Source: Ramlibacter sp. (lineage in GTDB: Bacteria > Pseudomonadota > Gammaproteobacteria > Burkholderiales > Burkholderiaceae_C). From it: a DNA stretch of 60,886 nt. The translations under genes and the position numbers were made by a program. The notes beneath the pieces are model-generated. The model did not search any database and was not told the origin of the DNA. It saw only the letters and a list, made by a program, of their open reading frames with translations. Positions 48,500 to 58,601 of the stretch are shown in pieces. Each line of letters starts with the position of its first letter. Positions within the stretch are counted from its first letter, which is position 1. The stretch lies in contig JAGRPN010000255.1 of NCBI GenBank assembly GCA_019449555.1, positions 1 through 60,886 on the forward strand, written 5' to 3'.

Positions 48500-48908
48500 A
48501 CACCAGGGTCGGTCCGACCAGTAACGGGTGGCACGAGCGACCGGCGAGGAAGACCTTCAAACGCTTTCACTGACCCAGATCAAAAAGAGGATTTGCTTCG
48601 GACCAAGGGATTAAAACGCGCGGCTTCGTTGAACAGGTTATGCACTATTGGTCGCAATCGGCCGCGCGCCGTTAGGTACTAGGTCGTACCAGGCTAACCG
48701 CACCTGTTCGCGCCTCGCCAATTGCCGGGTTGTTACCAGGGGTATTCGAATCGACAATGCCCACCGTGCGTTTGTCAATACCTGTAAACCATAAGGTTTC
48801 TCGCCTTACACAGGCAGAGCCAAGAAAGCAGGAATTGGCCCCGCCAGGAGGGCGTCAACGCCGGTCCGGCGCCCATTTTGAAATCTTTTCTTCATATTGG
48901 GGGCCTCA
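48500..48908 (+). other. 409-bp gene-free leader of the cytochrome gene with short hairpins
   Basis: Lower GC than surroundings and no gene-like ORF. Hairpins GGTAC-TAGGTC-GTACC (48675-48690) and AAACC-ATAA-GGTTT (48786-48799), the latter flanked by CCTGT and ACAGG (48781-48814). They suggest a structured 5' UTR. I could not match a known riboswitch, including GEMM, which lacks its conserved elements here. Confidence 0.4.
48570..48583. promoter_or_regulatory. Degenerate FNR/Anr-type site CTGAC-CCAG-ATCAA
   Basis: A full right half (ATCAA) with a weak left half, sharing CCAGATCAAA with the site before bzdN. About 325 bp ahead of the cytochrome start, so a long leader would be required. Confidence 0.35.
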
Positions 48909-51365
48909 GTGGCGCTATTTGACTTGTTGAAAAAGAACCGTTGGATCAGCCTCGGGGCGGCGGGCGTGCTCGCCGCCGCGCTGGGCGGATGCGGCGGCGG
49001 AGGATCCGACACAACGACGCCGAGCGGCACGGATCCCGCGGCAACCGCGCTGAAAGTAACTCTCGCCGCCGACGCCGATGAAATAGGCTATGGCAACACG
49101 GTGGCCGTGCACGCCACGGCCACCTCCCCCACCGGGGCGCCGATCACCTACAAGTGGACCGGTATCGCGGCGCCATCGACGAGCAAGGACGCAACGGTCA
49201 AGACGCCTGAGTTGGCAACGGTCCTGGCCGGCACGGCCGCGCCGGCCAACGATCCGGGCGGGTACTACGGCAGCTTGAAGCAGGAAGACCGCTTCGGGAT
49301 CCTGCCGATCAACCCCGACAACAAGGCCGCCGTGAACGCCACCGTCACCGTCGATGATGGCAGCAAGACCGCTACCGCATCGATCACGGTCAACGCCGCC
49401 GGCATCTCGACCGGTTTGACGAATGTCCCGATCGGCGTGCCGGTCTATCTGAACAGCGGCCATGCCGATCCCAGTGCGTGGACGCTGGCTGCGGTTCCCT
49501 CGGGTTCCAATGCGGCGCTCAGCAAGGCGGCCACACGGAATGCCTTTTTTACCCCGGACGTTGTTGGCAAGTACACGGTGAAAGAAGGCAGCAAGAGCAT
49601 GGACGTCTATGCCGGTACATGGGTAGGCGCCATCTCGGGCGGCACTGAAGATGCAAAGGGACTTCCGTCCGTCAAACCCGATGACAACTGCGTTCTTTGC
49701 CATTCAATCCCCGCCATCGCGCCAGACATGTTTACTCCCTGGGCGAAGACGCCGCACGCCACGTTCTTCGCCACCGGCCTGAACGGGCAGACCTCCAATG
49801 GCGCCACTTGCGTCGCCTGCCACACCGTTGGCGCCGACACCGCGCCGCGCGCCAAGAACAGCGGATTCGACGATGCGGCCACGGCCAATAGCTGGGTTTA
49901 TCCGCTGGTCAAGAAGGTCGGCAACTGGCTCGGCATGTGGTCCGACCCGAAATCCGCCCAGGTTGCGCGCATGTCCAATATCCAGTGCGAAAACTGCCAC
50001 GGCCCGAATGCCGGCTTATCCCATGGGACGACCAAGACGGTCGGCCTGACCGGCCTCAGAACCTCTCTGGACGCATCGGTCTGCGCCAGTTGCCATGCTT
50101 CGGGCACCGGCCACCACAACTACTCCGAGTGGCAACAGCTTGACCCCGATACCGGCTACGGCCATTCCCACTCTGCGTCGGGCAATGCGTCCTTCACCAC
50201 GAGTGCCAGTTGCGCGCGTTGCCATACGGCCGAGGGTTTCCTGATCTACCTTGACCAGCTCACTGCCGGCAACATCGGGTCGCTGCCCGCAACTGCGATG
50301 ACCACCAAGGTGACTGCCGACACCGCGCATGCGGTGACCTGCGCCGCCTGCCACGATCCGCACGACGCTTCTGTGAGCGGAATCAAGTTCGACAATCCGG
50401 CCAAGCCCGGCGTGCCGTCCTCGAGCCAGCTGCGCGTGTTTGGCGACACCAAGGTGCTGCCGTCCGGCTTCGCGGTTTCCGGCTTTGGTGCCGGCGCGCT
50501 CTGCGTCGTTTGCCACAACAGCCGCAACGGCGCCCAGACCGGCTCCACCACGGCGACCTACTTGCACGAAGACGGTGAAACCTATAACGGTGGCAACCCT
50601 ACCGGCTATTCGGCGCCGCACCAGGCTGCACAGGGCGACGTGTTCGCGGGCCGCAATGCCTACTTCCTTGGCGCGGGCGCGCTGCCGCAGCTATCCAAGC
50701 ACGCCAATGTGGCGGAATCGTGCGTCGGTTGCCACATGACGCTGAACCCGCAGACGCACCTGTCCCACGGCGCCGCTGCCACCAGCAAGCACGTGTTCTA
50801 CATCCGCGACCAGGACAAGGGCAAGGTCTGCGCCAACTGCCACGGCGCAACCGACGGCGAGGCGCTGGTGAAGTCCACCGAGGACGGACTGGCCGCACTC
50901 GGCGCGAAGATGGCGAACTCCGTCAAGGCCAAGCTGGATGCGGCTTCGACGGCTGCGCCTGTCTACTTCAAGAACGTCTACCTCGTAGACGACAAGGGAG
51001 CCATCGTTCAGAACAGCGCCAAGGCAGAAGTGACAGCCAATTTCGTCTACGACGGCAGCAACAAGTACGCCAGCGTGGCGAACACCGAGGTGCACGGCCA
51101 GATCGGGCACACCTACACCTTGACCGCTCCGATCACGGTGACCGTGGGTGGCGTCAACTACACCGTGAAGTCGTTTGAAGTCGGCATCGGCTCGATCTTC
51201 TCGGACTCTGCCATGACGACCAACGTGTATGCCCTGTCAGGCAACATGGTGCGCGCCGGCTGGAACTACTATCTGATCGAAGGCGATCAAAGCAAGGGCA
51301 TCCATAACCCGAGCTTTGCGACCAACGTGATCAAGGCCAGTCTGGCGAAAGATCTCTCCAACTGA
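48909..51365 (+). CDS. Nine-haem c-type cytochrome lipoprotein
   Basis: The protein has 818 residues from GTG 48909 (GGGG six bases upstream); TTG 48897 is an alternative. Lipoprotein signal SLGAAGVLAAALGGC then GGGG. Residues ~30-255 look Ig-like (YKWTGIAAPSTSKDATVKTP). Nine CxxCH motifs lie between residues 261 and 645: CVLCH, CVACH, CENCH, CASCH, CARCH, CAACH, CVVCH, CVGCH, CANCH. The last ~170 residues have no haem motif. Such outer-surface multihaem lipoproteins move electrons to external acceptors. No MtrA- or MtrB-type partner genes are seen here. Strong candidate for anaerobic induction via the FNR-like site. Confidence 0.88.
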   Translation: MALFDLLKKNRWISLGAAGVLAAALGGCGGGGSDTTTPSGTDPAATALKVTLAADADEIGYGNTVAVHATATSPTGAPITYKWTGIAAPSTSKDATVKTPELATVLAGTAAPANDPGGYYGSLKQEDRFGILPINPDNKAAVNATVTVDDGSKTATASITVNAAGISTGLTNVPIGVPVYLNSGHADPSAWTLAAVPSGSNAALSKAATRNAFFTPDVVGKYTVKEGSKSMDVYAGTWVGAISGGTEDAKGLPSVKPDDNCVLCHSIPAIAPDMFTPWAKTPHATFFATGLNGQTSNGATCVACHTVGADTAPRAKNSGFDDAATANSWVYPLVKKVGNWLGMWSDPKSAQVARMSNIQCENCHGPNAGLSHGTTKTVGLTGLRTSLDASVCASCHASGTGHHNYSEWQQLDPDTGYGHSHSASGNASFTTSASCARCHTAEGFLIYLDQLTAGNIGSLPATAMTTKVTADTAHAVTCAACHDPHDASVSGIKFDNPAKPGVPSSSQLRVFGDTKVLPSGFAVSGFGAGALCVVCHNSRNGAQTGSTTATYLHEDGETYNGGNPTGYSAPHQAAQGDVFAGRNAYFLGAGALPQLSKHANVAESCVGCHMTLNPQTHLSHGAAATSKHVFYIRDQDKGKVCANCHGATDGEALVKSTEDGLAALGAKMANSVKAKLDAASTAAPVYFKNVYLVDDKGAIVQNSAKAEVTANFVYDGSNKYASVANTEVHGQIGHTYTLTAPITVTVGGVNYTVKSFEVGIGSIFSDSAMTTNVYALSGNMVRAGWNYYLIEGDQSKGIHNPSFATNVIKASLAKDLSN

Positions 51366-53320: not shown

Positions 53321-53366
53321 TTGATCCAGATCAAAGAAATGGGCGCCGCCCCGGGCGCAATATACG
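53321..53366 (+). promoter_or_regulatory. FNR/Anr/AcpR-type site TTGAT-CCAG-ATCAA with -10 region before bzdN
   Basis: A perfect FNR consensus at 53321-53334, centred at 53327.5. A class II start (centre -41.5) would fall at ~53369, where CAATAT (53358-53363) or TATACG (53361-53366) provides a -10. The bzdN start is at 53413, giving a ~44-base leader. In Azoarcus the FNR-type protein AcpR activates the homologous bzd promoter. Confidence 0.8.
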
Positions 53367-53412
53367 CATTCCGGTACCGGAATACCCCTATCGGACCCAA
53401 CAGGAGACAGAT

Positions 53413-54588
53413 ATGGACGCTGAAGGACCCGGCCGCGAGGCCGAACTGGACGAGATCCTCGAGTATTGCAACACGCTCAGGCAGTCACCCATACCCGCAG
53501 ACGATGCGCTGCCCAGCGGATTCACGGGCACGCTCGGGCACTTCCCCGTCTACTTTCCCGAGGAGATCGCGCACGCGGCGGGCCTGCTGCCGGTCAACAT
53601 CGTGGGCGGCGGCAACAAGCTCGAGCTCAAGCACGCGGACGCGCACATGGGATCGTTCATCTGCTCGATCTGCCGCTCGACATCGGAGATGGGGCTGAAC
53701 GGCTCGCTGCAGGGGCTCAAGGGCTTCATCACCCACCCGATCTGCGACGCCGCCAAACATCTGGCCGGCATCTGGTCGCGCAACTTCCCGGACCAACTCG
53801 CGCAGATCCTGTACCTGCCGCAGAACCCCAACACCCCCGGCGCGGTGCGCTACGTGGCCGCCGAGTACCAGCGGCTGCGCGGCGAACTGGAGCGCAAGTC
53901 GCACCGGCAAGCCACCGACGAGAACCTGCGCGCCAGCATCCGGGCCTACAACCGCAACCGTTCACTGCTGCGCGAGCTGTACGCCATCCGGCGCGAGGAG
54001 CCGTGGAAGGTGAGCTGCACCGAGTCGTACCTGCTGCTGCGCGCCCGCACCCGCATCCCCTGCGAGGCGCACAACGACCTGCTCGAGAGCGCTCTGCGGG
54101 GCATCCGGGCGCGCAATCGGGCGGCGCAGGACAAGCCGCGCGTCGTCTTCGTCGGCGGTTTTTGCGAGCAGCCGCCGCTGGAGATGCTGGAGGCGATCGA
54201 TGACAACTGCTACGTGGTCGATGACGACCTGCTGATCGGCCTGCGCTGGATCACGGCCGACGTGCCCGGCAACGGCGACCCGATCTGGGCGCTGGCCGAA
54301 AGCTTCATCGAGCGCTCCGCGGCCAGCCCCGTGCAGCATGACGAGCGCAAGACCAAGGAAGGCTACCTGATGGACATGATCGCCGGCAGCAAGGCCGAGG
54401 CGGCGATCGTGACGGCAGCCAAGTTCTGTGAGCCGGGGCTCGACGAGCAGGTGGCCTGGTCCAAGCACCTCGACCAGGTCGGCGTGCCGTACCTCATCCT
54501 CGAGTTCGAGGAAAAGATGACTTCGTTCGAGCAGATGGCGATGCAGCTCGAAACCTTCGCCGAATCGCTGCTTTTCGCAACCGCCTGA
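53413..54588 (+). CDS. bzdN: Benzoyl-CoA reductase subunit BzdN (2-hydroxyacyl-CoA dehydratase family)
   Basis: The protein has 391 residues; AGGAGA precedes ATG 53413. HgdB/FldC-like fold; conserved cysteines occur in [15 protein letters not shown] and [11 protein letters not shown] near residues 92-120, and [15 protein letters not shown] later. Cys ligands of the [4Fe-4S] site are in the N half. BzdN and BzdO form the ring-reduction module that takes electrons from the BzdPQ ATPases. Gene order N-O-P-Q-M is the same as in Azoarcus. The aerobic box pathway is not required for this enzyme; benzoyl-CoA is reduced to a cyclic diene with ATP hydrolysis. Confidence 0.85.
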
Positions 54589-54602
54589 CCGGAGCCCATG
54601 CC

Positions 54603-55949
54603 ATGACCACCGAAACACTCGAGCGGCCCGCTGCCGACAGCGCGGCCGAATTCAACCCGATCGCCGAGGGGCAGCGCCTGATGAAGGCCTGGTATGCCAA
54701 CCTGGAGCAGGCCAAGGAGCGCGGCCAGAAGGTCGCCAATGTCTTCGTGATGGGCAATGCCATCGAAATCCTGCGCACGTTCGACTTCCAGCTCGTCTTT
54801 CCGGAGATCAATTCACTGCAGACCGGTGTGAAGAAGGTCTCCGAGGAGTACCTGCGCGAATCGGAGGACTACGGCTACTCGCCCGACGTGTGCTCGTACG
54901 TGAAGGCCGATGTGGGCCTGATCCTGCGCAAGCAGAAGCACCCGGCGGGCACGATTCCCCACGCCGACATCGCCATCACATCGAACATGTGCAGCACGTT
55001 CATCAAGTGGGGCGAGATCTGGGAGCGCATGCTCAAGACGCCCACCTTCACGCTCGACCTGCCCGGCCAGCGCGGCGCCGGCTGGCAGGTGCGCCGCGGC
55101 GACGCCCAGCACATGGCCGACTCCCAGTGGGTAGAGGCGCAGTTCCGGCACCTCATCACGCGTTGCGAGGACATCACGGGCAAGCGCTTCAGCTTCGATC
55201 GCCTCGCCGAGGTCCAGGACCGCGTCAACCGCATGGTCTACCACTGGAACAACGTGATGGCGCTCAACCGCGCCTGCCCCGCACCGTACAACGCGATGCT
55301 CGATGGCCTCACCTACATCGGCATCATGAACGTCTACCGCGGCACCGAGGAAGGCGTCGAGTACATGCGGCAGCTCGAGGAGCAGCTGCGCGCCAAGGTG
55401 GCGCGCGGCGAGGGGCGTGTGCCCGAGGAGCGCTTCCGGCTGCTGTTCTCCGGCACGCCCTGCTACGTGTCCATGCGCCGGCTGGTCGAGCTGTTCGAGA
55501 GCTGGGGCGGCGTGTTCGCCTATTCCGACTACCTCACGTTCGCGGCGGGCGGCATGGACGCGGGCGAAATGGTCTACGACACCTCGCGCCCGCTGGAGAG
55601 CCTGGCCGAGATCACGGCCCTGGCGGCGCAACGCGGCCTGTCGAACCAGTTCTTCGCCCACGAGCGGCTGGCCCAGCAGATCAAGGAATACGACGTCGAC
55701 GGCGTGGTGTTCCACGGCATCAAGAGCTGCCGCTTCGTCTCTTCCGGCATGGCGGATACGCGCAACTACCTGAACCAGCGCATGAACATCCCGAGCCTGT
55801 ACGTCGAGTCGGACCTGATCGACCCGCGCTACTGGTCCGACGCGCAGATCAAGAACCGCGTCGACGCCTTTTTCGAGTCGCTGCACCAGCGCGGCGGCCC
55901 GCCGCCCACGGAACGGGTGCAGGCCGCAACGAAGGGAGGTGTGAAATGA
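54603..55949 (+). CDS. bzdO: Benzoyl-CoA reductase subunit BzdO
   Basis: The protein has 448 residues, 14 bp after bzdN. HgdB-like domain with an N-terminal extension relative to BzdN. Conserved segments: [58 protein letters not shown] and [16 protein letters not shown]. The Cys in DVCSYVK, SNMCST and KSCRF are the expected Fe-S or substrate-site positions. Its stop overlaps bzdP (ATGA). Length matches the ~50 kDa subunit of Azoarcus- or Thauera-type reductases. Confidence 0.85.
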
Positions 55950-56770
55950 GGTACGTCGGCGGCGTCGACGTCGGATCCACCCAGACCAAGGCTGTGATCC
56001 TGGACGAGGACGGCAAGGTGGTCGGGCGGGCGCTGCTCGACATGGAAACCAGCATGATGACCATCGCGCAGGACGCCTTCCGGGCGGCCCTGGCCGACGC
56101 GGGCCTGAACGAGGACCAGGTGGCGCGCGTCGCCAGCACCGGCTACGGCCGCTACAACGTGTCGTTCGGCGACGAGCAGGTGACCGAAATCACCTGCCAC
56201 GCGCGCGGCGCGGTGGCCCTTTTTCCCGGCACCCGCACCGTCATCGACATCGGCGGCCAGGACACCAAGGCGATCTCGGTGAAGCCCGACGGGCAGGTGG
56301 CCGACTTCACCATGAACGACAAGTGCGCCGCCGGCACCGGACGCTTCCTGGGCGCGGCGTCGTACGCACTCGAGATGTCTCTCGGTGAACTCGGGCCGCT
56401 GGCCCTGAAGTCGCAAAACCCGGTGCGCATCACGACCACCTGCACGGTGTTCGCCGAGTCCGAGATCATCAGCCACCTCTCGAAAGGCATCCTGCCCGAG
56501 GACGTGCTGATGGGCGTGCACCAGGCCATCACCAGCCGCTGCGTGTCGCTCGCGCGCCGGGTCGGCGTGCACTCCGAAGTGACCTTCACTGGCGGCGTCA
56601 GCCGCAACGTCGCGATCGTCAAGCTGCTGGAGGAGTCGGTGGGCATGAAGATCAACGTCAGCCCCGATGCCCATTTCTGCGGCGCCCTCGGCGCCGCCCT
56701 GTTCGCCCGCGAACACGCGTTCGCCACGCCGGCCCAGCCGGCCGAATCCCTCGCCCAGGAGGCAGCATGA
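55946..56770 (+). CDS. bzdP: Benzoyl-CoA reductase ATPase subunit BzdP
   Basis: The protein has 274 residues; GGGAGGT ahead of ATG 55946. ASKHA/BcrAD ATPase: [19 protein letters not shown] phosphate loop, [16 protein letters not shown] second loop. The bridging [4Fe-4S] Cys are 127 (NDKCAAGTG) and 166 ([10 protein letters not shown]). Two such subunits share the cluster and drive electrons to the ring with ATP. The short length (274) fits the Azoarcus BzdP rather than the longer BcrA of Thauera. Coupled to bzdO and bzdQ by ATGA overlaps. Confidence 0.87.
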
Positions 56771-57759
56771 TCTACGTTGTTGGACTCGACATCGGATCGA
56801 CCTACACCAAGGCGATCGCGCTCGACGCGGACCGCAAGGTCGTGGGCACGGCCGTGCGTCGCACGGGCTTCAAGCTGGCGCAGGCCGCCGAAGCCGTCTT
56901 CGAGGACCTGCTTGCGAACTGCGGGCTGCAGCGTTCGGACGTGACCTACGTGGGCGCCACCGGCTACGGGCGCTACACGGTGCCGTATCGGCATGCGCAG
57001 ATCACCGAGCTCACGGCGCACGCGCAAGCGGCGGTGCACCTGTTCCCGGACACACGCACCATCCTGGACATCGGCGGCCAGGACATCAAGGCGATCAAGG
57101 TCGACGGCGACGGGCGCGTGAAGGCCTTCCGCCTGAACGACAAGTGCGCCGCCGGCACCGGTGCCTTCCTGGAGAAGACGGCGCGCTATCTCGGCCTGAC
57201 CACGGAAGACATCGGCCCTTACGCGCTGCGCGCGACTTCACCGAAGACCATTAGCAGCGTGTGCGCGGTGTTCGCCGAGTCGGAGGTGATCAACCACCTG
57301 TCCAACGGCGTGCCGGCCGAAGACATCATGATGGGCGCGATGATCTCGCTCGGCGGGCGGGCGATCCAGCTGATGCGGCGCGTCGGCCTGGAGCCCGGCT
57401 ACATGCTCACCGGCGGCATGACGCGCAACGAGGCGATGGTGACGGCGCTTGAGCAGGCGCTGGGCGCCCCGTTCCACGTCGCCCCGAACGGGCTGGGTCA
57501 ATTGAACGGCGCTTATGGCGCAGCCTTCCTCGGGCTGCGGCGCGTGGAGAAGCTGCTGGCGCAGGGCCAGCCAATCCCGCCCACCGCCGCGCAGCAGGGG
57601 CAGGCCGATAACAGGCAGACGGTGCGCCGCTGGTCGGCGATGGCCGCCACGCGCCGGCGTTTCGAGCCGTGCGGTACCGGCGAGTGCCCGGTCGTCCCGG
57701 CCGTCCTCACGAAGTTGAAATCCGCGCCCGCCGCAAACCCTGAGCAGGCCGCCGCCTGA
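56767..57759 (+). CDS. bzdQ: Benzoyl-CoA reductase ATPase subunit BzdQ
   Basis: The protein has 330 residues with the same ASKHA organisation: [32 protein letters not shown], Cys127 in NDKCAAGTG and Cys166 in [10 protein letters not shown], at exactly the same residue numbers as in the partner subunit. A ~50-residue Ala/Pro/Arg-rich tail follows [13 protein letters not shown] and includes a CGTGECP pair, a possible extra contact or Fe-S site. Together BzdP and BzdQ make the ATP-dependent activase heterodimer. Confidence 0.87.
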
Positions 57760-57798
57760 CGGCGGCCACCGATCCCCGCCTGAACCCTGGAGGCAAGC

Positions 57799-58125
57799 AT
57801 GACCCATGTTGTGACCGAAGCGTGCATCAAGTGCAAGCACACCGACTGCGTCGAAGTGTGTCCCGTCGACGCGTTCCACGAGGGGCCGAATTTCCTGGTC
57901 ATCGACCCCGACGGCTGCATCGACTGCATGGCCTGCGTGGCCGAGTGCCCCGTCGCCGCAATCTATGTCGACAGCGACGTGCCCGCGAACCAGCGCAAGT
58001 TCCTGGCCTTGAACGCGGAGCTGGCGCGTGACTGGCCCGTCATCGTGAAGAAGCGCGAGCCTTTGCCCGATGCTGAGCAATGGGCCGGCGTCGCGGACAA
58101 ATTCGAGCACCTGCAGCACTCCTGA
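57799..58125 (+). CDS. bzdM: Ferredoxin BzdM-like (7Fe FdxA-type), electron donor to benzoyl-CoA reductase
   Basis: The protein has 108 residues. First motif CIKCKHTDCVEVCP, second CIDCMACVAECP. Ligand layout is that of 7Fe (3Fe-4S/4Fe-4S) ferredoxins; the free Cys of the CPVDC loop in Azotobacter FdI is Ala here (CPVDAF). Position directly after bzdQ (39 bp) is as in Azoarcus, where ferredoxin passes electrons to the reductase. Confidence 0.88.
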   Translation: MTHVVTEACIKCKHTDCVEVCPVDAFHEGPNFLVIDPDGCIDCMACVAECPVAAIYVDSDVPANQRKFLALNAELARDWPVIVKKREPLPDAEQWAGVADKFEHLQHS

Positions 58126-58157
58126 CGGGGTGACGCCCAGCATACAAGGAGAACACC

Positions 58158-58601
58158 ATGGAATCGATCAGCAGCTACATGCAGCAGGACCACGTCGTCA
58201 TCGACGGCATTGCCGAGCGGGCCCTGGCCGCCGCCGAGGCGCGCGACTGGGCCGCCCTGGCGCGCGACGCGGCCGAGTTCCTGCGCCGCCTGCGGCAGCA
58301 CATCGAGGTAGAGGAGAAAGTGCTGTTCCCCGCCTTCGAGCAGCGCACCGGGATGTCGGCGGCGGGCCCGAGCGTGCAGATGCGCGAGGAGCACCAGCAG
58401 ATGCAGCCGATCCTGGCCCAGATGCAGGCAGCTGCGGCGGCCCAGGACGGCGCCGGCTACCAGCGCGCGACGAAGGCGCTGCTCGACATCCTCATGCCGC
58501 ACAACCAGAAGGAGGAGCAGATGATGTACCCCATGCTGGACGAAGCCCTGGGTGAGGATGCACAGGCGCTGCTGGCCGACGCCAAGAAGGTGCTGGTCTG
58601 A
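58158..58601 (+). CDS. Haemerythrin-domain protein at the end of the bzd operon
   Basis: The protein has 147 residues after AAGGAG. Four-helix haemerythrin fold with ligand pattern: QQDHVVIDGI, LRQHIEVEEKVLFP, EEHQQMQPIL, and PHNQKEEQMMYPML. Bound di-iron would hold O2. It is 32 bp after bzdM on the same strand, so it may scavenge or sense O2 to protect the oxygen-labile reductase. Alternatively it is a separate stress gene. Confidence 0.88.
   Translation: MESISSYMQQDHVVIDGIAERALAAAEARDWAALARDAAEFLRRLRQHIEVEEKVLFPAFEQRTGMSAAGPSVQMREEHQQMQPILAQMQAAAAAQDGAGYQRATKALLDILMPHNQKEEQMMYPMLDEALGEDAQALLADAKKVLV

Follow-up and report, generated by a model that had tools for sequence, protein, structure and literature searches.

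Class I benzoyl-CoA reductases are described in PMC11971306 as key enzymes of anaerobic aromatic degradation and as a model for enzymatic Birch chemistry. The group includes the benzoyl-CoA reductase BcrCBAD of the Thauera type (BCR), the benzoyl-CoA reductase BzdNOPQM of Aromatoleum (BZD), and the 3-methylbenzoyl-CoA reductase MbdONQP (MBR), which is represented by the Thauera chlorobenzoica structures PDB 9g87/9gai and by the mbd cluster of Azoarcus sp. CIB. The 2-hydroxyacyl-CoA dehydratases (HAD), such as HadBC with its activator HadI, share the fold superfamily and an ATP-driven activator. The subject of this study is a stretch of 60,886 nt from Ramlibacter sp. (GCA_019449555.1, contig JAGRPN010000255.1, labelled C89 in our analysis), here called the window, in which six genes on the + strand (53413-58601) form an operon. 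We consider it likely that they encode an aryl-CoA reductase that is of MBR ancestry irrespective of the substrate and that belongs to a sister clade of MBR, not to bzd. A preliminary description had taken the genes for a complete bzdN-O-P-Q-M operon. The six genes are real and constitute an ATP-dependent class I module, but cut-offs, bit scores, trees and the cysteines of N speak against the bzd identity.

The first gene, N (53413..54588, +; 391 amino acids (aa)), encodes a gamma-type catalytic subunit of the HGD-D fold, similar to MbdN/BcrC. AGGAGA lies just 5' of its ATG, and the aligned relatives start at the same position; base 53321, from which the operon had been counted before, is where an FNR-type box begins. 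N is followed by the beta-type active-site subunit O (54603..55949, +; 448 aa; MbdO/BcrB-like), the ATPase subunits P (55946..56770, +; 274 aa; MbdQ/alpha-like) and Q (56767..57759, +; 330 aa; MbdP/delta-like), an FdxA-type 7Fe ferredoxin as probable electron donor (57799..58125, +; 108 aa) and a single-domain hemerythrin-like (HHE) protein (58158..58601, +; 147 aa). Several details of the preliminary description are borne out by the sequence, namely the ATGA couplings at O/P and P/Q, the gap of 32 bp between the ferredoxin and hemerythrin genes, and the pair Cys127 and Cys166 in both P and Q, which we take to hold the bridging cluster. The ferredoxin was also correctly recognized as 7Fe-type (FdxA model NF045490, 158.7 bits, cut-off 135) and the last gene as a hemerythrin (PF01814, 72.8 bits, cut-off 25.3). 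By Pfam, N and O belong to HGD-D and P and Q to BcrAD_BadFG, while the last two proteins have ferredoxin domains and a Hemerythrin domain, respectively. The HGD-D, BcrAD_BadFG and Hemerythrin scores are far above the Pfam cut-offs and the gene set is therefore not due to chance. Two HGD-D catalytic subunits together with two different BcrAD ATPases carrying the Cys pair make up the gene set of a class I aryl-CoA reductase in the broad sense. With a GC content of 0.67, close to the 0.66 of the window, the operon gives no sign of recent transfer. Q matches MbdP over residues 1-267; its C-terminal tail lies beyond and contains the motif RRWSA, which is found in 27 of 28 aligned sequences and as KRWSA in locus L039.

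The case for a true bzd-type operon bzdNOPQM comes from gene order, subunit types, ATGA overlaps, the Cys127/166 pairs and the downstream ferredoxin, all of which match. The order N-O-P-Q-M, previously read as the Azoarcus arrangement, is not diagnostic, because gamma-beta-alpha-delta-ferredoxin is also the order of bcrCBAD-fdx in this genome. None of the NCBIfam Bzd cut-offs (TIGR03190/TIGR03191/TIGR03192; no BzdP model was among the matches) is reached: N scores 103.4 of 453.8 bits and O 99.1 of 448.6, a shortfall of about 350 bits each, and P (171.3) and Q (166.9) stay below 380.2. The Bcr cut-offs (TIGR02259/02260/02261/02263) are likewise missed by N (294.9 of 421.15), O (228.1 of 486.55), P (223.9 of 578) and Q (163.5 of 312.85), whereas genes on contig C185 of the same genome pass all four. 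Compared with solved structures, O is most similar to MbdO (372 bits; HadB 104, BzdO 90) and N to MbdN (376 bits; HadC 145, BzdN 107), while P matches MbdQ with 355 bits (MbdP 179) and Q matches MbdP with 249 bits (MbdQ 221). An AlphaFold model of O (predicted local distance difference test 78.5, predicted template modelling score 0.82) is nearest in fold to T. chlorobenzoica MbdO (TM score 0.83-0.85), followed by HadB (0.79) and BzdO (0.74-0.75).

Maximum-likelihood trees were calculated for O (58 rows) and N (53 rows). The window clade and MBR form one clade in both (support 100/97 for O and 99/97 for N), with BCR next to it and the Bzd rows as a separate clade outside. For O, a branch that separates the window clade from all other rows is present in 100% of the bootstrap trees, and the clade is sister to MBR. 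The phylogenetic comparison with Bzd, Bcr and Mbd, which had been proposed as a check of the bzd assignment, thus goes against it, and the grouping with dehydratases that had been named as a contrary outcome is not what the trees give. Two Aromatoleum loci with O 43-44% identical have the gene order O-N-Q-P (Q and P named by likeness). L060 is the published mbd locus, to which three primers of PMC4424350 match with zero mismatches. Membership in bzd is already refuted by trees and cut-offs. Moreover, three BzdN cluster cysteines are absent from N, the window contains no TGCA(N6)TGCA site of the BzdR repeat type, and a Rhodocyclaceae metagenome-assembled genome (MAG), G150, carries the clade besides two genes above the BzdO cut-off. 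The bzd assignment was rejected on its cut-offs, bit scores, tree position and missing BzdN cysteines, and its probability is next to nil.

PMC11971306 lists Cys36, 73, 100, 263, 293 and 327 as ligands of the [8Fe-9S] double-cubane cluster of BzdN. N keeps three of these six, as Cys84, Cys111 and Cys339 (equivalents of 73, 100 and 327); the other positions are Pro45 (36), Leu274 (263) and Ser305 (293, in a gapped stretch). On the other hand, Cys19, 84, 111, 251, 266 and 339 of N are common to the window clade, MBR and BCR (46/46 rows). That these six hold a double-cubane cluster in another arrangement is a prediction. Equivalents of Cys251 and Cys266 are absent from HadC (position 19 lies outside the HadC fragment used). 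This bears on the possibility of an atypical 2-hydroxyacyl-CoA dehydratase, for which one can cite that PF06050 and PF01869 are in common, that HadB is the second nearest fold and that several active-site residues occur in both. The activator of HAD is a homodimer from one gene and no second ATPase is known there, whereas two different ATPase subunits, P and Q, are present here. With the trees grouping the clade with MBR and BCR, with Cys251 and Cys266 retained in N (the former also in the HAD-like rows L078 and L089), and with the ring-cleavage gene oah co-occurring with the clade, a dehydratase is very improbable; on the trees and the Cys pattern of N it was rejected as the best reading.

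For BzdO, the same source (PMC11971306) gives Cys95/128/380, Glu65, His131, Trp46, Tyr97, Tyr298 and Gln274 as key residues. The alignment of O shows Cys97, Cys130 and Cys376 in place of the cluster ligands, and Glu68, Tyr99 and Tyr310 in place of Glu65, Tyr97 and Tyr298, so the active-site [4Fe-4S] ligands and the acid/base Glu expected of class I enzymes in the broad sense are present. Other positions differ from BzdO: His131 corresponds to Phe133, as in MBR and the BCR rows, and Gln274 to Thr285, again as in MBR, where BCR has Pro. At position 46, the site of Trp46 in BzdO, each of the 30 clade rows that can be read has Asn (one more row is cut). Here the two MBR rows have Tyr, the BCR rows that can be read have Ala, and Trp is found in the three HAD-like rows as well as in those BZD rows that can be read. 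Relative to BCR the ring pocket of O differs by Asn46 versus Ala and by Ala315 versus Val.

A single scan of the genome collection revealed 30 further loci, each from one genome, with O 80-95% identical. Most are labelled Burkholderiales, and the isolates Ramlibacter lithotrophicus, Ramlibacter alkalitolerans and Ramlibacter monticola are among them. The nearest O (95%) is that of R. lithotrophicus (L029) and the window's genome is listed in the same genus, under which G044 also appears, with an O match at the position seen in L029; the host is thus Ramlibacter or a close neighbour, which agrees with the Burkholderiales host proposed earlier. There is also one MAG each with the label Myxococcota, Lysobacter or Rhodocyclaceae. 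Two MAGs with different labels, L034 and L035, encode identical O proteins, and one of the labels may therefore be a binning error. No description of the clade was found in the literature searched, and no paper behind PDB 9g87/9gai either; most subscription papers lay outside that search.

The window's own contig contains no match to oah, had or benzoate-CoA ligase, as had been noticed before; dch was not searched genome-wide by family. Near the operon, at 48897-51365, lies a gene for a multiheme cytochrome with nine CXXCH motifs and an MtrC/MtrF-like domain match, possibly located in the outer membrane. A search of the rest of the genome had also been proposed. Contig C185 carries dch-bcrCBAD and a YfhL-type ferredoxin, each above its own cut-off, the start of had is found at the end of contig C377, and a benzoate-CoA ligase cut by the contig end is present on C284 (700 bits, cut-off 375); oah could not be found. 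In three relatives the order is had-oah-dch-bcrC-B-A-D-fdx, and because of this order oah presumably lies in the gap between C377 and C185. The preliminary description would have counted an absence of ring-cleavage genes against its own reading; we ascribe the missing oah to that assembly gap. The genes divergent from had encode a KorAB-like 2-oxoacid:ferredoxin oxidoreductase and not a regulator. A narG split over two contig ends, C301 and C183, is consistent with nitrate respiration in this genome. Another contig, C297 (locus L022, 4777-6989), encodes one activase and one HGD-D protein. Among the NCBIfam models HadB is the closest, with a score well short of the cut-off, and the next open frame resembles an acyl-CoA synthetase by eye; this is a third BCR/HAD-family system in the genome.

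The gene oah was detected in 27 of the 30 other clade genomes (26 above cut-off). Of 147 genomes surrounding that of the window, 18 have it, and three of these 18 are among the four clade carriers in that set; these are counts only, from genomes that are related to each other and from unmatched sets. BcrB above cut-off is encoded in 24 of the 30 clade genomes, and all four carriers among the 147 relatives have a second BcrB-like gene (33-36%). The best evidence that the clade works as a dearomatising reductase comes from the MAG locus L042, where the order is crcB, acyl-CoA dehydrogenase, had, oah, a dch-like gene, tetR, N, O, P, Q and hemerythrin. Here had (399 bits) and oah (516) are above cut-off, the dch-like gene (218 of 292.5) is below, and the genome has no other BcrB match. 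Among the flanks of the 30 loci, only those of L042 gave a hint of the pathway. The crcB gene (1028-1432 of L042), a fluoride exporter above cut-off upstream of had-oah-dch-reductase, might hint at fluorinated aromatics; a fluorobenzoate reading is not argued because this context was seen in one locus only.

The frequent presence of BcrB in the same genomes and the promoter elements in common with the had operon would fit a benzoyl-CoA reductase isoenzyme, which acts on the substrate of Bcr and is tuned by hemerythrin and FdxA to other redox or oxygen conditions. In L042 the clade reductase even seems to replace Bcr. Asn46 and Ala315, by which the ring pocket consistently departs from that of BCR, may however mean another substrate, and we regard the isoenzyme as a possibility that falls short of being probable. 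Another reading would give the enzyme the substrate range of MBR proper, that is 3-methylbenzoyl-CoA or 3-halobenzoyl-CoA, both of which are substrates of MBR. This reading is favoured by MBR being the sister clade and, of the characterised types, the nearest. Yet O is only 42-44% identical and the order is N-O-P-Q instead of O-N-Q-P, the MbdR operator ATACN10GTAT is absent from the window, residue 46 is Asn in 30/30 readable rows versus Tyr in two MBR rows, and the scanned open reading frames of the window (part of all) include no ABC transporter, CoA ligase or ring-cleavage family. In addition G171, the genome of L051, carries both the clade and an MbdO-like reductase (L132) that has homologues of oah, had and dch beside it; this coexistence speaks for separate roles. 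An MBR substrate range is thus rather unlikely. The assignment to an aryl-CoA reductase of MBR ancestry covers any substrate and overlaps with these two alternatives, which differ only in substrate; in this broad form we hold it with good confidence. G171, a Burkholderiales genome, has four aryl-CoA reductase-like systems in all: a BcrB above cut-off, L132, the window clade and L134 (G171:C48, 4100-8127), another class I reductase-like set with N-like (51%), O-like (38%), P-like and Q-like proteins.

We also looked at the promoter of the operon. A perfect FNR-type box TTGATCCAGATCAA (53321..53334, +), a predicted anaerobic activation site, is located 78 bp upstream of N and is the only perfect TTGAT-N4-ATCAA in the window (expected 0.03). 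It is followed by a possible -10 hexamer CAATAT (53358..53363, +), about 1 bp off the expectation for a class II FNR promoter, and after 31 bp from the box by a palindromic operator-like element of 20 bp, GCATTCCGGTACCGGAATAC (53366..53385, +), which overlaps the predicted transcription start and has no second copy in the window. The spacing of the N promoter resembles that of the bzd promoter, which the FNR-like AcpR activates from -41.5 according to PMC6678401. Upstream regions of N were compared in 29 sequences, the window and 28 loci (L035 has no upstream DNA and L057 no N). The FNR box is perfect in 13, has at most one mismatch in 17 and at most two in 23, and shows at least three in 6. 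The palindrome, with the consensus GTATT-NN-GGTACC-NN-AATAC (also GYATT-NN-GGTACC-NN-AATRC), occurs with at most two mismatches in 27/29, a count made on the very sites from which the consensus was derived, and no further site with at most three mismatches exists in the window and loci L029-L058, which together comprise 534,545 bases. Where both elements lie within two mismatches, their spacing is 28-32 bp in 19 of 22 sequences.

The promoter of had in this genome contains a perfect FNR box and a related palindrome with two mismatches. A survey of had promoters in clade-bearing genomes covered 29 loci, of which 24 were readable (L104, L105, L109, L110 and L118 were not); L102 and L119 share one genome, as do L118 and L120, and three clade genomes were reached twice at the same contig positions (L099/L130, L101/L150 and L114/L131). 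The element is present within three mismatches in 16 of the 24 and with four mismatches in 5. It is absent from three, L115, L116 and L119, and the had genes of these share only 46-48% identity with the query. Among the had promoters of 14 bcr-only relatives, which lack the clade, 9 contain the element within three mismatches. Random segments gave 78/4000 at the same threshold; as these were drawn from the same loci, they include the element itself. Box and element are mostly 38-44 bp apart before had. The N operon and the had operon thus appear to form one regulon. The module was earlier said to be separated from the rest of the pathway, which is true of its position but seemingly not of its regulation, since FNR box and palindrome are common to both promoters. 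None of the genes flanking the 30 loci is common to enough of them to be a linked regulator; in a gene clustering with a rough gene caller, which missed many P and ferredoxin genes, flanking genes were shared only within a few sets of loci. A TetR gene lies between dch and N in L042.

The hemerythrin gene is a steady companion of the reductase. In 25 of 27 loci with readable downstream genes (L043, L048 and L035 end before them) a homologous hemerythrin is encoded within 436 bp downstream of Q, while FdxA between the two comes and goes and is present in 14. The clade hemerythrins are 51-74% identical to that of the window. His12, His48, Glu52, His79, His115 and Glu119, presumably the di-iron ligands, are invariant in 26/26 aligned sequences including the window's. 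Among the 147 relatives, matches of at least 65% were found only in the four reductase carriers, on the same contig and within about 4 kb of O, and 20 other genomes gave weaker matches of at most 48%. A role as oxygen guard of the reductase, as suggested before, is plausible. HHE genes are reported from other benzoate gene clusters in PMC6449761, which calls their role unclear and considers a possible oxygen store or scavenger; neither the guard idea nor the link between HHE and benzoate genes in general is therefore new.

Several observations weigh against the interpretation of the operon as an MBR-derived reductase wired into the benzoyl-CoA pathway. The N tree leaves the window clade unresolved from MBR (48% of the bootstrap trees). 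The BzdO residues Gln274, Leu302 and His131, which contact the thioester, the ring or the water ligand, are Thr, Ala and Phe in O, and those retained are mostly retained in HAD-like rows too, which is why they alone are no proof of reductase chemistry. Cys251 of N is also found in both HAD-like rows L078 and L089, where 266 is absent. The family search did not detect oah in the window's own assembly, nor in three of the 30 clade genomes. L042 and L050 have no palindrome before N, and at least four mismatches to it are seen before had in 8/24 clade-genome loci and 5/14 bcr-only relatives. Finally, two of the 27 loci (L050 and L058) have no hemerythrin and 13 of 27 no FdxA.

Gene set, phylogeny, motif conservation, shared promoter elements and co-occurrence are read directly from the sequences, and from them we infer chemistry, regulators and hemerythrin function as follows. 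The enzyme probably breaks the aromaticity of benzoate-like compounds in an ATP-driven reaction without oxygen, and 53413-58601 would be an operon, expressed under anaerobic conditions, for an additional aryl-CoA reductase of class I that uses ATP to dearomatise its substrate. The [4Fe-4S] cluster between P and Q (Cys127/Cys166) would receive its electrons from FdxA or from a ferredoxin pool that the KorAB-like enzyme supplies. ATP hydrolysis would then lift electrons to N and on to the aqua-[4Fe-4S] cluster of O (Cys97/130/376), where a benzoyl-type CoA ester may be reduced with Glu68 as acid/base. The cyclic dienoyl-CoA product could enter the Dch-Had-Oah route encoded on other contigs. An FNR-type activator and a palindrome-binding regulator, probably a repressor, are predicted to couple the operon to the unlinked had-oah-dch-bcrCBAD-fdx genes. 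O2 (or NO) is the most likely ligand of the hemerythrin, which may in this way shield the oxygen-labile clusters at oxic-anoxic transitions.

A more far-reaching proposal, which we put forward tentatively, is that the clade represents a further class I type beside BCR, MBR and BZD. Its altered ring pocket with the invariant Asn46 would serve a substituted or polar aryl-CoA, the hemerythrin would be a functional partner that lets dearomatisation run or survive at oxic-anoxic transitions in facultative bacteria, and a shared regulator would wire it into the benzoyl-CoA regulon. With 30 other genomes carrying it, most of them Burkholderiales and three of them Ramlibacter isolates, the clade would widen the known reductase types. 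With the hemerythrin being steadier in the operon than the ferredoxin, protection of an oxygen-labile enzyme in facultative bacteria becomes directly testable, and the FNR-plus-palindrome promoter offers a handle for finding the regulator and predicting more pathway genes. Annotation of these genes as bzd or bcr would mislead substrate predictions.

In comparison to the known systems, the operon is remote in sequence from BzdNOPQM, with which it shares the gene order and, presumably, the general chemistry; three of six double-cubane cysteines are in place, and Phe133 and Asn46 replace His131 and Trp46. HadBC with HadI is alike in fold superfamily and ATP-driven activator, but differs by the lack of Cys251 and Cys266 in HadC and of a second ATPase gene. 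Closer is BCR, of which the genome has its own copy on C185: the order gamma-beta-alpha-delta-ferredoxin, the six gamma-subunit cysteines and the related elements of the had promoter are alike, whereas O is only about 30% identical, all Bcr cut-offs are missed, the ferredoxin is FdxA instead of YfhL-type, and P (274 aa) is about 170 residues shorter than BcrA (448 aa). MbdONQP is the sister clade and the best solved match for all four subunits, with two distinct ATPases, six shared gamma-subunit cysteines and the same cluster ligands in O. In contrast to MBR, with 42-44% identity in O and 47-48% in N, the window clade has the order N-O-P-Q, Asn46 instead of Tyr46 and no MbdR operator; as far as neighbouring genes in the window were scanned, none belongs to an mbd-type pathway. 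It adds a tail to Q and a hemerythrin, plus FdxA in roughly half of the loci.

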